Made by a program: the position numbers and the translations under genes. The notes under the pieces are model-generated. The model was not told the DNA's origin and made no database searches. It saw nothing but the letters and a program-made list of their open reading frames with translations. A stretch of 64,000 nucleotides of DNA from positions 36,850-100,849 of the forward strand of contig NZ_JH815226.1 of assembly GCF_000238095.2 (NCBI RefSeq), in the 5' to 3' direction. The stretch comes from Peptoanaerobacter stomatis. Its GTDB lineage: Bacteria > Bacillota > Clostridia > Peptostreptococcales > Filifactoraceae. Every line of letters starts with the position of its first letter. Position 1 is the first letter of the stretch. Shown here piece by piece: positions 56,360 through 64,000 of this stretch.

Positions 56360-57167
56360 AAAAACACTCCTTGTCAAAAAAATATTAATCATAATACAAA
56401 ATAAGTAATGATAATAATTTACAAATTTACAATATTAAGGCTGTTTATAAAGATATTGTAATATGCTAAAAATAATACAATAAAAAATATCTCGCATGAT
56501 TATATCTTTTTATAACAGTTCTTATCATAATTTGTAAACTATTTGTTAAAATATGTATTGTAATGTTCTTAAATTTATGTATATTTTTTCATAAATATAA
56601 AAAATCATCACTTGTTTTATTCCAAAATTATATAGCACAATTTTAGTTTTGTAAATACTTTTTACTATTATTTTTTTAAATATTAAATATATAGTTTTAT
56701 ATTAATCGTATGAAAGTATTATAATTGTATTTAAAGTTTCATATTTTTTTTAATTACATTCTTTACTTATGTTGTTTGATATTATCCGAATAAATAGCTT
56801 GCATTATACTAAACACCAATTAAAAGTATATATAATAATATAATTAAAAAATTGTATTTTTTAAAAACTATAAATATATTCAATTTAAAATTCTCATAGT
56901 ATTTAGTGTTAAAATATAATGACATTATTTTTTTATCATTGATTTTTAAACTTATATATTGTATCATTAAATATATAAACGTTTTTCCTTATATTTATAC
57001 TTATATACTGTAAAAAATATATGTACCAATATTTAAAAAATGATTTTTTCTTTTAAATATTTTGTCGCCTATTATATTTACTTTCTGAATAGCAGTATAA
57101 AAATTATATGTTATTTCTGATATATTTTGGTATTATTTTCAAAAAACTATTAACAAGGAGGAAAAAA
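56360..57167. other. Long AT-rich intergenic region between the nup operon and an unknown secreted gene
   Basis: About 800 bases, no gene. An imperfect inverted repeat (56441-56456 with 56502-56518) would form a hairpin in the nup leader, but the sequence does not carry the conserved purine riboswitch core. A weak ATACTAA end near 56815 hints at a decayed repeat. Otherwise nothing that I can support. Confidence 0.5.
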
Positions 57168-58232
57168 ATGTTTAAAAAAAATAATTTATTTATATTGCTC
57201 ATTTTTGCTTGCATGCTAACTTATTTGGGTGGCAATGTCTTTGCCGTTTCCAAAAATACAACGCCTAAGACCAATGTTACTACAAATAAAAAAACTGTCC
57301 AAAAACAACAAAAAATTTCTATTGAGAAAACTATAGCGAAATATCTTGAGAACGTACCGAGAATTTTTTACATAATACCTGAACTTGATAAAGCAAAAAT
57401 TACAAAATTAAAAAATAACTACAATATCACTGATTTTACTTCTGAAGCTGATTATTTTTATTATGAATATGACAAAATAATGATAGATGAGCTTAATGAA
57501 AGAATTCCTGGCAACTATTCAGTTTATTCTGTCAACAATAAACTGTACTGTTATGTTGAAAACAATACAAACAAGATATATATAGAAAATGACGGTATAT
57601 TTTCTCTTCCCGATTATAAAATTGTCGTACCTATTTTTAATAAAGCAAAAACTTTTTCTTTTAACAGAGATGATGATGTATACTATAATTTAATCGCTTC
57701 ATTGGTTATAAGAGACAAAAAGCTATCAAAAGAATCTAAATTTTTATATGATACTCATAGAGACAGCAAAGATGATTACAAATTATATGTAAAAGTTACT
57801 ATGGAAGACGGTATAGGCGACCACTATATAGGGACTTATATGATTGACACTGTTATGAGAACTGTTACTGATCAAAAGACAAAAAAAGTTTTATATGACG
57901 ATTCGGCAGTTATGAAATATCCTGAAACTTTTATAACTGAGAAACAGGCAGGAGAAATGGCTGCGAAGATATTAAGAAAATTGAAGATATTGGGAGCTAA
58001 TCAAAGATATTATGTCACTGATGTTAAAGAGACTACAGATGATAATAATTATTTAGTGGAAGGTAGAGAAGGATATTTCTTGACAATAATGATTGACAAT
58101 CCTAAAAATCCAGAAATCAAAGAGCTTTTAGGACATTTCTTTATTAACAATACAAGTACAGTTATGATGAAATACTATGTTGTAGAAGATTTATATGAAT
58201 ATATTTATGGAAAATATACTCCATTTGGTTAA
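57168..58232 (+). CDS. Secreted protein of unknown function
   Basis: I recognise no family. The 354-residue product has a signal peptide (FKKNNLFILLIFACMLTYLGGNVFAVS, cleavage likely after VFA) and a Thr/Lys/Gln-rich linker. The acidic and basic soluble domain is rich in Tyr and Asp, and has no obvious catalytic motif. AGGAGG lies 6 bases before the ATG at 57168. An in-frame ATG 20 codons upstream is less likely. It is monocistronic, flanked by an 800-base AT-rich gap and by two repeat elements. Confidence 0.8.
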   Translation: MFKKNNLFILLIFACMLTYLGGNVFAVSKNTTPKTNVTTNKKTVQKQQKISIEKTIAKYLENVPRIFYIIPELDKAKITKLKNNYNITDFTSEADYFYYEYDKIMIDELNERIPGNYSVYSVNNKLYCYVENNTNKIYIENDGIFSLPDYKIVVPIFNKAKTFSFNRDDDVYYNLIASLVIRDKKLSKESKFLYDTHRDSKDDYKLYVKVTMEDGIGDHYIGTYMIDTVMRTVTDQKTKKVLYDDSAVMKYPETFITEKQAGEMAAKILRKLKILGANQRYYVTDVKETTDDNNYLVEGREGYFLTIMIDNPKNPEIKELLGHFFINNTSTVMMKYYVVEDLYEYIYGKYTPFG

Positions 58233-58574: not shown

Positions 58575-60563
58575 TTATATTATTTTTTCTTCCCAAAAAA
58601 TTTCCACTCTGTCACCATTTCTAAGTTCGCTTGTAAGCTCTGCTGTATTACCGTTATGTTTCATAATTAGATTACCTTTCGGCTTAGAGCGATCAAAATC
58701 TATATTGTCAAATATATCTATAAACAATATCTTATCTCTTTTTGATTTAATTGTTATCATAGAACCGTTATATATGACCGTTATACTCTTTTTAACAGAC
58801 TGTACATCATCTGAAGTTTCTTTTTCTTTCGGCATATCGGATATTTTTATTTTATCATTAGGTTCTACACTTAAATCATATTTTGAAAATTCTCCGTTTA
58901 TAAAAATTTGCTTGTCATCCGCTATATTCATATTTTGTCTTATTTTATCTGTACTATCCAAAATGTCATAACTTATTTCATCTCCATTTTCAAGCATTGT
59001 AGAATAATCTTTACATTCTATTGAGTTTATCTTTATATTGCAAAAATAAGGAACTATATCATCATTTATATATATATACTTTTCACTTATCAAATCTTTT
59101 ATTGAAACTTGTGCATTTTGACCTGAAGTAGCAGGCTCTATTGATATTGTATCTCCATCATGTATATTTGTGTCAATATTTGCTTTTTGATCATTTAAAT
59201 TTATTTTAGCTTCTTCACCATAAGTTCCGTTAAATATTTTTTTATCTCCATTTATAGTTACAAGTATTGATTTTCCTTTTCTTGATATTAAATCTCTCGG
59301 ATTAAAACCCGCCAATATCAGCGCATCACTTATTTTAAGATCTGCTGATCTAAATAGCTTGATCTTCTTATCATTCACTTTTATCTCCATAAAATCTTTT
59401 CTCTCATTTTTTATTGCACATGTCAATATACCTACAGGTGTTATAGATTGCGGTCCTTCTAAAATAGGTGTATCATATTCTATATTTTGAATGTTTTCGA
59501 CAGATTTTACCACAACTCTTGATTCTTGTAATTGAAGATTGTCTGCTATAAGTTTGTTAAGAATTGGTAATTGAGAACCTCCTCCTATCAAAAAGACGGC
59601 ACTTGGAGATTTTCCATTAGTTTTTAATATAGCATCTGATATATTTTTTGCAACCAAATCTATAGAATCTTGAATTTGCTCCAATATTTCATTTGTAGTC
59701 ATATTTATTTGTGTACCGACTATATCTGTAAAAGATTGCTCTGAAGATTTACAAAGATTGCATTTTATAATCTCAGCCGTATCAAAATCTAACAGGAATT
59801 TTTGAGATAGAGCTTCTGTTATTTCATCGCCTGCTGTAGATGTCATTGAATATCCAATTATTGTTCCGTCTTTTGTAATCGCTATATCTGATGTGCCTGC
59901 ACCTATATCGACCATTGCAATATTTAAAAGTCTAACATTTTCAGGTATGGCAACTTCTAATGCTACTATAGGCTCCAATGTCATATACGATATGTTCAAG
60001 TCAATTTTGTGCATTACCGAATCCAATGCCTCAACTACTATTTTAGGTAAGAAAGTAGCTATTATTTCAAGTGAAATTTTTTTACCTTTATGTCCATTAG
60101 GATTTTTAATCTCATAATCATCCAATTTATATGTCATCACTGTATGTCCGACATTATAATACGATACATTGTCATTCAAATTTTCTTTAAGTATGTTTGC
60201 TGCTTGCTGTAATACTTCTATTTCTATATTTTTCATTATTTGAGAATCAATTAACGTTTCTTCTTCAAATTCTTCAATAACATTTGTATGTATTGTTTTT
60301 AATGAACGTCCTGCCGCAGCAATCGCAACATCTGTAAGTTTTACTCCGCTTTCTTTTTCCAATCTGTTTTTTACTATCTGGGCTACATCAGCCACTGCTT
60401 GAATATCATGTACCTGTCCGTCATACATAGCTCTCTTTTTATGCAGTTCCATAGCTACATTTTTTATTTTTATTATATCTCCATCTTTTTCGCCTAAAAT
60501 TCCCATAATACTTCTTGTACCTATGTCCAAGGCAAAGAAAGTTTCATTTTGATTAATGTCCAT
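58575..60563 (-). CDS. Long FtsA-like actin-fold protein
   Basis: The first about 375 residues have the FtsA/PilM-type actin fold: phosphate-1 ALDIGTRSIMGI, phosphate-2 VDIGAGTSDIAIT and adenosine motif FLIGGGSQLPIL. An SHS2-like region lies between (residues about 75-165). The C-terminal 285 residues are beta-rich and unlike classic FtsA: repeated small modules with patterns such as KSILVTINGDKKIF and DKQIFINGEFS. At 662 residues it is far longer than FtsA (about 420). It may be a division or membrane-machine ATPase; I would not call it ftsA itself. Confidence 0.8.
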   Translation of the reverse strand: MDINQNETFFALDIGTRSIMGILGEKDGDIIKIKNVAMELHKKRAMYDGQVHDIQAVADVAQIVKNRLEKESGVKLTDVAIAAAGRSLKTIHTNVIEEFEEETLIDSQIMKNIEIEVLQQAANILKENLNDNVSYYNVGHTVMTYKLDDYEIKNPNGHKGKKISLEIIATFLPKIVVEALDSVMHKIDLNISYMTLEPIVALEVAIPENVRLLNIAMVDIGAGTSDIAITKDGTIIGYSMTSTAGDEITEALSQKFLLDFDTAEIIKCNLCKSSEQSFTDIVGTQINMTTNEILEQIQDSIDLVAKNISDAILKTNGKSPSAVFLIGGGSQLPILNKLIADNLQLQESRVVVKSVENIQNIEYDTPILEGPQSITPVGILTCAIKNERKDFMEIKVNDKKIKLFRSADLKISDALILAGFNPRDLISRKGKSILVTINGDKKIFNGTYGEEAKINLNDQKANIDTNIHDGDTISIEPATSGQNAQVSIKDLISEKYIYINDDIVPYFCNIKINSIECKDYSTMLENGDEISYDILDSTDKIRQNMNIADDKQIFINGEFSKYDLSVEPNDKIKISDMPKEKETSDDVQSVKKSITVIYNGSMITIKSKRDKILFIDIFDNIDFDRSKPKGNLIMKHNGNTAELTSELRNGDRVEIFWEEKII

Positions 60564-60703: not shown

Positions 60704-61327
60704 TCAAAAAAAACTTCTAATACATTTTTTCACTCTTCCAAGTATTCTTATGTTTTTAAAATATATTGCGTCATAATTTGAATTTTCCGGTTGGAGTCTT
60801 ATTCTGTCTTGCTTTTCCATATAAAATCTTTTTACTGTTAAATTTCTATCGTTAATTAAAGCTACCGCTATTTCGCCATTTCTAAGTGTTTGAATTTTTT
60901 GTACTATAAGCAAGTCTGAATTATATATACCTGCATCTATCATTGAATCATCATTGGCTTTTGTTATAAAAAAATCTCCCTGACTTATCCAATTATTGGG
61001 TATAGGTATGTAATCCTGTATATTTTCTTTATCAAATACATCAAAATCCATATTTCTATATTCTATAAGAGGAAGCAAGGTTATATTATTCTTATAATCA
61101 TATTCGTCAACTCCATCCACAAGCGTTATCGATCTGTTCTTATTAGACTGCCTATTAATATAATTTTTTTCTTCCAACGATTTCAATATCCTGTGTACAG
61201 TAGAAGTAGATTTCAAATCAAGAGATGTCTCTATGTCTGATATAGATGGGGAAAATCCATTTTCAGATAAATACCATTTTATATATTCATATGTTCGTGC
61301 TTCATTGGCATTAAGCTCTTTTTTCAT
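60704..61327 (-). CDS. LexA-like repressor without the canonical Ala-Gly cleavage site
   Basis: The 207-residue protein has the LexA winged helix (LNANEARTYEYIKWYL...PSISDIETSLDLKSTSTVHRIL) and an S24 peptidase domain with Ser128 (NDDSMIDAGI) and Lys166 (LTVKRFY). Where the cleavage loop of LexA holds Ala-Gly, this protein reads LIEYRNMDFDVF (residues 88-98), with Met-Asp at the expected position. Self-cleavage in an SOS response is therefore doubtful. It is AAGGAG-like preceded (GAGGTG before the ATG). No SOS box was found in its upstream gap. Confidence 0.85.
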   Translation of the reverse strand: MKKELNANEARTYEYIKWYLSENGFSPSISDIETSLDLKSTSTVHRILKSLEEKNYINRQSNKNRSITLVDGVDEYDYKNNITLLPLIEYRNMDFDVFDKENIQDYIPIPNNWISQGDFFITKANDDSMIDAGIYNSDLLIVQKIQTLRNGEIAVALINDRNLTVKRFYMEKQDRIRLQPENSNYDAIYFKNIRILGRVKKCIRSFF

Positions 61328-61847
61328 ATTCTAACACCTCCTCAAAATATTTTTTCTATTGTCCAACTGAAAACCCGATATTGTAAAACTTTATAAAATC
61401 AATAAATCTACAAAAATGCAATAACTTTAAAAATTTAATACTTGCTTTTTAAATTTTGTACAATATTAACAGTAAAACAATCCATATTTTTTATAAATTT
61501 TTCTTAATCGTTTTAGCTTCTTTAAATTTAAAAATTTTATTTATAACATAATAACATAAAAATATAATTTTATAAATTCTTTTTTGTAAATAACACTATA
61601 AATAGCTGATTCATTAATAATATTAACTTAAATTTTTCATATTTTAGTTTAAAGTTAATATAAAAAATAACTTATTTTTTATATTTTTCAAAAATTTTTT
61701 TATATAAAAAACTGTAATTTCAAACATTATATGGTATTAACAAAACTTTAAGTAAATTTAAACTATAATTTTAACTTGAGTTTAAGTAGAGAATTTATAA
61801 TTAATTTATCAAAAACAAACAACAGTCATAAAAAGGGGTGATAATAT
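61328..61847. other. AT-rich divergent region between lexA-like gene and the VTC operon
   Basis: About 520 bases without a gene. A few short palindromes occur by AT content, but I see no clear operator or promoter pair. The upstream region of the VTC gene ends in AAAGGGG ribosome binding site. Confidence 0.45.
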
Positions 61848-62573
61848 ATGAAAAACACAAATATATTCAAACGTGTAGAACAAAAATATTTAATAACAAA
61901 GCAGGAGCAAAAAATTTTATTAGATGCTATGAAAGAACATATGCAAGAAGATGAACACGGAAGAAGTACAGTAATCAGTATATATTTTGATACACAAAAC
62001 AATCTGCTTATAAGACGTTCAATGCAAAAGCCTGCATACAAAGAAAAACTCAGAATTCGCTCATACGGTATTGCTACACATGACAGCAAAATATTTATAG
62101 AACTCAAGAAAAAATATAAATCAGTCGTATATAAAAGAAGAATATCAATGCCTGAAAAAGAAGCTATGGATTATCTTATAAACGGTAATAGGCCTGACAA
62201 AAACAGTCAAATATTAAACGAAATTGACTATTTTATAAAAATAAACGAAGGTATCACATCTAAAATGTATATATCTTGTGATAGAGAAGCATATTTTGAT
62301 ATGGAAGATGACAATTTCAGAATAACATTTGATACAAACATAATGTGGAGACAAGATAAGTTGTCCTTATGTGAGCGCCCTTACGGAACACAGATTCTAA
62401 AAGATGGTATGGTGCTTATGGAAATGAAATCAGTAAACGGTCTTCCTTTATGGATGACAGACATACTTACAAAAAATCATATATATAAAACATCTTTTTC
62501 AAAATATGGAAATGCCTACAAAATGGCAAAAGAAATAAAAGATATGAAAATATTGATATTAAAAGCATCTTAA
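61848..62573 (+). CDS. VTC-domain polyphosphate polymerase-like protein
   Basis: A 241-residue protein with the VTC catalytic fold: FKRVEQKYLITKQEQKILLDAM, STVISIYFDT, KLRIRSYG, FIELKKKYKSVVYKRRISM, and the late VLMEMKSVNGLPLWM. Such domains in yeast Vtc4 form inorganic polyphosphate from ATP at the membrane. Bacterial homologues beside DUF4956 proteins are not well characterised. First gene of a probable three-gene operon. Confidence 0.92.
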   Translation: MKNTNIFKRVEQKYLITKQEQKILLDAMKEHMQEDEHGRSTVISIYFDTQNNLLIRRSMQKPAYKEKLRIRSYGIATHDSKIFIELKKKYKSVVYKRRISMPEKEAMDYLINGNRPDKNSQILNEIDYFIKINEGITSKMYISCDREAYFDMEDDNFRITFDTNIMWRQDKLSLCERPYGTQILKDGMVLMEMKSVNGLPLWMTDILTKNHIYKTSFSKYGNAYKMAKEIKDMKILILKAS

Positions 62574-62693
62574 TTTTTTTATAAAATCATTTAATATTAT
62601 ATTTTATAATCATATTAAGCCAATATAAAACTAAAAAAGGCAATTAAATAATATTAATACTACTTAAAAACAAAAAAGAAAGAAGGAAAAAAT

Positions 62694-63395
62694 ATGAATA
62701 TGGCTATTTTCACAGGAGTATTTGAAGATGCTTCGACAACTGCAACAACAGTTGGAATAACAGGTTTTATGACTTGTTTAATATCTGCACTCATAATAGG
62801 ACTTATAATAGCACTGACATACAAATATAAAAATAAATATTCTAAAAATTTCGTCACAACATTAGCTCTTATGCCAGCTATGGTTTGTGTAGTAATAATG
62901 ATGGTAAACGGAAATGTAGGTGCCGGTGTTGCAGTGGCAGGTGCATTTTCATTAGTAAGATTTAGAAGTGTTGCAGGAACTTCAACAGAAATAGGTGCAA
63001 TATTTTTAGCAATGGGTAGCGGACTTATGACAGGTATGGGATATATAGGTTATGCAGCAGTATTTACAATAGTTATATGTATGATGCAAATAATATATAA
63101 CCATATAGGAATAGGCTCAAAAAAATATGCAGCCTTGGACAAAACGTTAAGAATAGCAATACCTGAAGACCTTGAATACACAGGCTCATTGGATGACTTG
63201 TTCCAAGAATACACTACAAGTTGCCAAATGACAAATGTAAAAACTACAGATATGGGAAGCCTATTCAAATTAACTTACAATATAACTTTAAAAACAGAAA
63301 ATATAGAAAAAGAATTTATAGATAAACTTCGTTGCAGAAACGGAAACTTGGAAATATCAATATCACAACAAGAAAATAATATAAATGAATTATAA
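62694..63395 (+). CDS. DUF4956 membrane protein
   Basis: The 233-residue protein has about four or five transmembrane segments (MTCLISALIIGLIIALTY, LALMPAMVCVVIMMV, GAFSLVRFRSVAGTSTEIGAIFLAMGSGL, YAAVFTIVICMMQII) and a cytoplasmic C-terminal domain. The segment VRFRSVAGTSTEIGAIFLAMG is the DUF4956 signature. It lies between the VTC gene and a secreted lipoprotein gene, the usual company of this family, and may form the membrane channel or anchor for the VTC enzyme. Confidence 0.92.
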   Translation: MNMAIFTGVFEDASTTATTVGITGFMTCLISALIIGLIIALTYKYKNKYSKNFVTTLALMPAMVCVVIMMVNGNVGAGVAVAGAFSLVRFRSVAGTSTEIGAIFLAMGSGLMTGMGYIGYAAVFTIVICMMQIIYNHIGIGSKKYAALDKTLRIAIPEDLEYTGSLDDLFQEYTTSCQMTNVKTTDMGSLFKLTYNITLKTENIEKEFIDKLRCRNGNLEISISQQENNINEL

Positions 63396-63473
63396 TTCAT
63401 TTAAAATAAATATTAATTTATAAAATTTAATTTACATTTAAAAAATAAAATTTCAAATTCGGAGGAAACTAAA

Positions 63474-64000
63474 ATGAAAAGAAAATTAGCAACACTAATA
63501 TTAACAGCCGTATTGGCAATGAATACGATAGCTTGCTCAGCAACTGCAAAAGCATCTTCAACAACTGTTACAAATACAACAACTTCACAAACTACTTCTC
63601 AAACAACTTCCAACAATAGCACTGCAATAGACGCACTCGACTCTGCAAATCTATTTTCTAAAAAAGACAAGGAAATAGAATATGACGAAAAAACAAGCAA
63701 AAATATAAAATTAAATAATGAATCTGTAACCATCAGTGAAGAAGGCACATATATATTATCAGGAACAATAACAAACGGACAAGTTATAGTAGATGCACCA
63801 AAAGAAGCAAAGATAACATTAGTTCTTGACTCTGTATCTATAAACAATGACACATCAGCAGCTATTTATGTAAAACAAGCTGATAAAGTATTCATAACTC
63901 TGGCAAAAAACAGTATAAATACACTGTCAAATAAAAGCGAATTTGTAGCAATAGATGATAACAATATAGACGGTGTAATCTTCTCTAAAGACGACCTTAC
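63474..64000 (+). CDS. Surface lipoprotein with PF14262-like (carbohydrate-binding) domain, incomplete at window end
   Basis: The gene runs off the right edge; 175 residues are visible. GGAGG lies 8 bases before the ATG. A signal peptide with lipobox-like TIAC (KLATLILTAVLAMNTIAC) is followed by a Ser/Thr-rich linker and a beta-rich domain with repeated valine-asparagine patterns (SVTISEEGTYILSGTI, ITLVLDSVSINN, VFITLAKNSINTLSN). This resembles the PF14262 / Cthe_2159 beta-helix type proteins often encoded beside VTC and DUF4956. Confidence 0.75.
   Translation, partial: MKRKLATLILTAVLAMNTIACSATAKASSTTVTNTTTSQTTSQTTSNNSTAIDALDSANLFSKKDKEIEYDEKTSKNIKLNNESVTISEEGTYILSGTITNGQVIVDAPKEAKITLVLDSVSINNDTSAAIYVKQADKVFITLAKNSINTLSNKSEFVAIDDNNIDGVIFSKDDL

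Follow-up and report, generated by a model that had tools for sequence, protein, structure and literature searches.

A LexA-like protein of Peptoanaerobacter stomatis with a replaced cleavage loop seems to stand outside the SOS switch

To cleave itself, LexA must fold a loop onto its Ser-Lys dyad, and in that loop P1 has to be small (Ala or Cys) and P1' has to be Gly. What, then, is a LexA homologue that keeps the dyad and lacks the pair? This is the question raised by a gene of P. stomatis, which we analyzed within a 64,000-nucleotide stretch of its genome (hereafter, the window). The gene and the parts of its product lie as follows:

60704..61327, minus strand: LexA-like regulator gene, 207 aa, with its ATG at 61327 and its stop at 60704
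61130..61318, minus strand: N-terminal winged-helix DNA-binding domain, residues 4-66 (PF01726 match to residues 4-65)
61028..61066, minus strand: cleavage-site loop, residues 88-100, IEYRNMDFDVFDK, with Met93-Asp94, placed by alignment with relatives
60941..60952, minus strand: Asp126-Asp127-Ser128-Met129, with the nucleophile Ser128 and with Asp126 in place of Gly
60830..60832, minus strand: catalytic Lys166, within TVKRF (Thr164-Val165-Lys166)

The coding frame is on the minus strand, while the plus strand opposite the gene has many stops. A strong ribosome-binding site (Shine-Dalgarno, GAGGAGGTG) closely precedes the ORF, and the codon-position GC pattern resembles that of the neighboring genes. 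The protein scored 136.3 bits over residues 4-205 with the lexA equivalog model TIGR00498 (NCBIfam, cut-off 110.95) and 44.3 bits with PF01726, the LexA-type winged-helix domain (cut-off 23.7); it was also above the cut-off for PF00717, the S24 peptidase family. Its top sequence matches in the PDB are LexA repressors. The AlphaFold model, built on an alignment of two rows, is confident in the N-terminal domain only, with a mean pLDDT of 48 in the C-terminal domain.

To compare the cleavage region, we aligned the protein with 29 relatives and, in a second round, with 107 distinct ones of its order, drawn from the best-scoring matches. Ala-Gly is found in 107/107 of the latter, at the place where the P. 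stomatis protein has Met93-Asp94, after Asn92; a relative of 31% identity from a contig scan also has Ala-Gly. The canonical loop in the Filifactoraceae reads VTAGAPI, VTAGQPI or VTAGEPI. Positions 89 (Gly), 96 (Pro) and 99 (Ala) are equally invariant among the 107 relatives and each of them is altered here, as is the Gly aligned with Asp126, which lies two residues before the nucleophile and is present in all 107. Both dyad residues are retained, Ser128 and Lys166 aligning with the S24 Ser-Lys dyad of every relative (107/107 for Ser and for Lys). These results bear out the first-pass annotation of this DNA, which had described a LexA homologue without Ala-Gly, with its helix-turn-helix and dyad kept and with the usual GDSM reading DDSM. 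It had also considered cutting at another bond, and this we disfavor, given that the loop holds no other Ala-Gly or Cys-Gly. Regarding a subfamily that would cleave at Met-Asp or a neighboring bond, none of the relatives compared shares the Met-Asp pair, and no homologue above 44% identity was found among 394 genomes of the order. A frameshift as the source of Met-Asp was discarded, since no gap is needed to align the loop, and each of the remaining two frames is either interrupted by stops or encodes nothing LexA-like.

The changes are concentrated in the loop. Among the 46 near-invariant positions defined from the 29-relative alignment, 33 are kept and 13 altered; the alterations affect 6/6 such positions within residues 89-99 (G89E, A93M, G94D, P96D, I97V and A99D), in comparison with 7/40 elsewhere (Fisher p = 1.8e-4), and several loop positions are now acidic. 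For the loop, the median identity to relatives is 0%, compared with 69% for a canonical member of the family (L003). In the DNA-binding domain it is 37%, against 66% for L003 and 52% for a second canonical member, although the recognition helix retains its Ser-Thr-Ser-Thr. In the C-terminal domain the value of 46% stays near the canonical ones (53% and 52%, respectively), which indicates that the dimerization domain has been kept. Judged from these alignments, the C-terminal domain is near normal, the loop is replaced and the DNA-reading head has drifted.

Following the first-pass suggestion of looking for a second, canonical lexA, we searched the P. stomatis assembly (2.33 Mb, 3 contigs, 97.4% complete) and found none, either with the protein itself or with TIGR00498, nor any second S24-family protein with PF00717. 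At this completeness, there is a small chance that a second lexA is missing from the assembly. The genome does encode RecA. We then compared 11 genomes of the family, including that of P. stomatis. Canonical LexA is present in three of them, two Acetoanaerobium (genus g5) and one of genus g4; the LexA region of one genome (G006) is 98.5% identical in DNA to that of Acetoanaerobium noterae, which the NCBI taxonomy places in the Filifactoraceae, Peptostreptococcales. No full LexA above the cut-off was detected in the two congeners of P. stomatis or in five genomes of two other genera, three of these LexA-less assemblies being only 72-88% complete. In the whole order, a LexA match is found in 353/394 genomes. 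Separately, S24 proteins with a Cro/CI-type head, similar to prophage repressors, occur in both LexA-less and LexA-bearing relatives (L038 in G002, L036 in G010 and L043 in G009).

The closest matches of the P. stomatis protein are the three canonical LexAs of its own family, at 41-44% identity. In the tree, it stands on by far the longest branch (3.5-4.5 changes per column) and its placement is unsure; a clade with the canonical Filifactoraceae LexAs is not rejected (p-AU 0.35). The RecA of the same genome is 71-77% identical to the RecAs of relatives, and hence the fast change is particular to LexA.

Does the protein still govern an SOS regulon? We searched promoter by promoter for GAACN4GTTC, allowing up to one mismatch; this is the known operator of Bacillus subtilis, with a GTTT form in Clostridioides difficile (PMC4234289). 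Two stretches upstream of the gene are concerned:

61328..61847, no strand: intergenic region 5' of the LexA-like gene, 520 bp scanned, 0 boxes
61453-61466: near-perfect 14-bp palindrome ATTTTGTACAATAT (ATATTGTACAAAAT) upstream of the LexA-like gene

No box was found before the lexA-like gene, recA or uvrB of P. stomatis. In the canonical relatives, boxes are present at the promoters of lexA (3/3, with three boxes upstream of the gene, one-mismatch copies included), recA (3/3), uvrB (2/2 of the promoters at hand) and the Y-family polymerase gene dinB (2/2). Among the LexA-less relatives, perfect boxes were absent from recA (0/7, one having a mismatched copy), and none was seen at uvrB (0/5) or at the Y-family polymerase gene (0/6), so that P. 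stomatis groups with them. The promoter of ruvC gives no information, because it has no box in the canonical relatives either. Since a box with up to one mismatch falls in only 5/182 of the 350-bp tiles of the window, absence is the chance expectation, while regular presence in the canonical relatives is not. Genome-wide counts are too noisy to be used alone, both for GAACN4GTTC in P. stomatis (17 sites, compared to 25 for the reversed control) and for AGAACN4GTTCT with one mismatch; among the first 15 perfect GAACN4GTTC cores of the genome, 13 lie within ORFs. The Y-family polymerase gene is a usual SOS target. With PF00817, we found no Y-family (DinB/UmuC) polymerase in the P. stomatis genome, while both congeners have one.

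The 61453-61466 palindrome was also considered as a candidate for a new operator. It gave 35 sites, compared to 20 in the control, yet five of the ten inspected were inside genes and it was dropped. These five include its sole other exact copy in the genome, which sits inside an ORF.

The surroundings of the gene differ from those of lexA in the relatives. Its neighbors in the window are:

58575..60563, minus strand: FtsA/PilM-like actin-fold protein, 662 aa, with extra C-terminal parts and below the FtsA cut-off
61848-64000, plus strand: three consecutive ORFs, for a VTC-domain protein, a DUF4956 membrane protein and a lipoprotein-like product (the last being the beginning of a longer gene)

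The FtsA/PilM-like gene starts 140 bp downstream of the LexA-like gene with no terminator-like site between them, and the two are possibly co-transcribed. The FtsA/PilM-like protein is also encoded in the congeners (54-61% identity), where no lexA adjoins its gene, and in Acetoanaerobium (51%). The VTC-DUF4956 pair is divergent from the LexA-like gene. In the family, canonical lexA and a LysM, YneA-like gene diverge from each other, and in Acetoanaerobium lexA lies near mutL and miaA (names taken from the translations); the P. stomatis gene is not at this lexA-yneA-mutL locus. Farther along, positions 57108-58232 of the plus strand hold an ORF of 374 aa whose start resembles a signal peptide and for which Pfam gave no match.

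According to these results, we think that the protein is probably a LexA by descent that no longer cleaves itself or serves as the SOS switch, and that has been retained as a stable winged-helix regulator. Among the three options raised by the first-pass annotation, it is thus the SOS-independent regulator or stable repressor that we favor, with the boxes absent and the loop replaced; the regulatory role itself is suggested by the DNA-binding domain alone. Because the loop that normally enters the active site now has Met as P1 and Asp as P1', RecA would no longer stimulate autocleavage. The retained C-terminal domain would keep a stable dimer, locking the repressor in its DNA-binding form, and the diverged winged helix would bind a changed operator; weak GAAC-type sites may be among its targets. 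The outcome would be constitutive or differently controlled regulation, as in the LexA of Synechocystis. The loss of the operators at recA, uvrB and lexA indicates a departure from the SOS network, and not a mere block of the SOS response. Against this reading we count the intact dyad, since an inactive protease could do without it; the Ser-Lys pair may persist as a structural element or as a remnant.

One could also see in this gene a decaying relic that lost its purpose when the SOS system was dismantled and is drifting to the full loss seen in the congeners. The missing LexAs of both congeners and of all five genomes of the two other genera, the very long branch and the lost operators all agree with that. 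Neutral decay over such a distance should nevertheless have left stops or indels, and the frame and the Shine-Dalgarno sequence are intact even though more than half of the residues have changed. Since the ORF and its ribosome site have survived so long a branch, the gene appears to have been maintained while diverging. Besides, the 33 of 46 near-invariant positions kept, and the gathering of changes in one loop instead of their spread, argue for a kept function over decay, and we regard a relic as unlikely. An acquisition of a LexA-type protein from a phage, a plasmid or a distant bacterium after loss of the native lexA would explain the location outside the relatives' neighborhood and the lack of a firm place in the tree. 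However, the best matches are the three canonical LexAs of the family, with which a clade is not rejected; no relative was found on viral contigs, the adjoining genes are not phage genes, and among the best phage and plasmid matches listed, Acetoanaerobium aside, identity is only 34-37%. A phage origin is therefore unsupported, and acquisition in general is, in our view, rather improbable.

The retained dyad leads to another alternative: an active but altered switch, in which Ser128 and Lys166 would cut another bond of the loop, or another protein, and in which the operator would have changed along with the DNA-binding domain to give a rewired response. That Ser128 and Lys166 survive while neighbors conserved in 107/107 relatives have changed, and that the recognition helix keeps its Ser-Thr-Ser-Thr within a diverged domain, would fit such a switch. 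Nonetheless, the loop offers no Ala-Gly or Cys-Gly and is acidic at several positions, Asp126 stands in place of the invariant Gly that precedes the nucleophile by two residues, recA and uvrB have no GAAC box, and the one further palindrome examined (TTGTACAA) gave no support. We hold this to be very doubtful, and the same applies to its more specific form, a damage-independent LexA-derived switch with a dyad that is active but uncoupled from Ala-Gly self-cleavage and with a re-specified operator, to which we give little credence.

To contextualize the stable regulator that we prefer, we compared it with known systems. The closest precedent is the LexA of Synechocystis sp. PCC 6803, which has Gly-Gly for Ala-Gly and Asp for the catalytic Ser and is reported not to act as an SOS regulator (PMC3091678, PMC7567884), and which represses other genes (PMC7567884, PMC3091678, PMC4759255). 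As far as sequence can tell, both proteins share LexA descent, the missing Ala-Gly, a kept DNA-binding domain and core SOS genes outside their control. The P. stomatis protein differs in having Met-Asp with Ser128 and Lys166 kept, and in belonging to a Bacillota genome whose relatives have lost LexA. Cyanobacteria that have lost both lexA and its boxes have been described (PMC3091678). In E. coli, the non-cleavable lexA3(Ind-) product (G85D) fails to induce SOS (PMC6363387); Asp likewise replaces the Gly of the scissile bond in P. stomatis, although LexA3(Ind-) is a single-residue mutant with intact operators, and here a whole loop has been replaced naturally and the operators are lost. C. difficile, from the same order, has a LexA with GAACN4GTTC/T operators at lexA, recA and uvrB and RecA-induced cleavage (PMC4234289). 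With it and other canonical clostridial LexAs, the P. stomatis protein shares the domain order, the winged helix, the Ser-Lys dyad and the family score, but it has neither the Ala-Gly nor the operators at those three genes. Finally, gp6 of phage GIL01 is also a regulator of LexA origin that has given up SOS repression, and it reads a different operator (PMC6182141); it consists of the DNA-binding domain only and is phage-encoded, whereas the P. stomatis protein is full length and chromosomal.

The departure of a LexA from SOS is thus already known, as in Synechocystis. What is new is the Bacillota setting, the survival of the Ser-Lys dyad when the loop has been replaced throughout, and the series of steps seen in a single family; a literature search for LexA and Filifactor returned no paper on the subject. 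The SOS switch seems to have been dismantled in P. stomatis and the repressor kept as a fixed regulator, and the species looks like an intermediate in a series that runs from canonical LexA with its operators (Acetoanaerobium and one other genus), through an apparently locked LexA with its operators lost (P. stomatis), to no LexA (the congeners and two genera). Such a series lets one ask in which order the parts are lost and what use a former LexA still has. In addition, a 'lexA' annotation, even with a Ser-Lys dyad, is no proof that the SOS response works, a point to bear in mind if drugs against SOS are considered for anaerobes.
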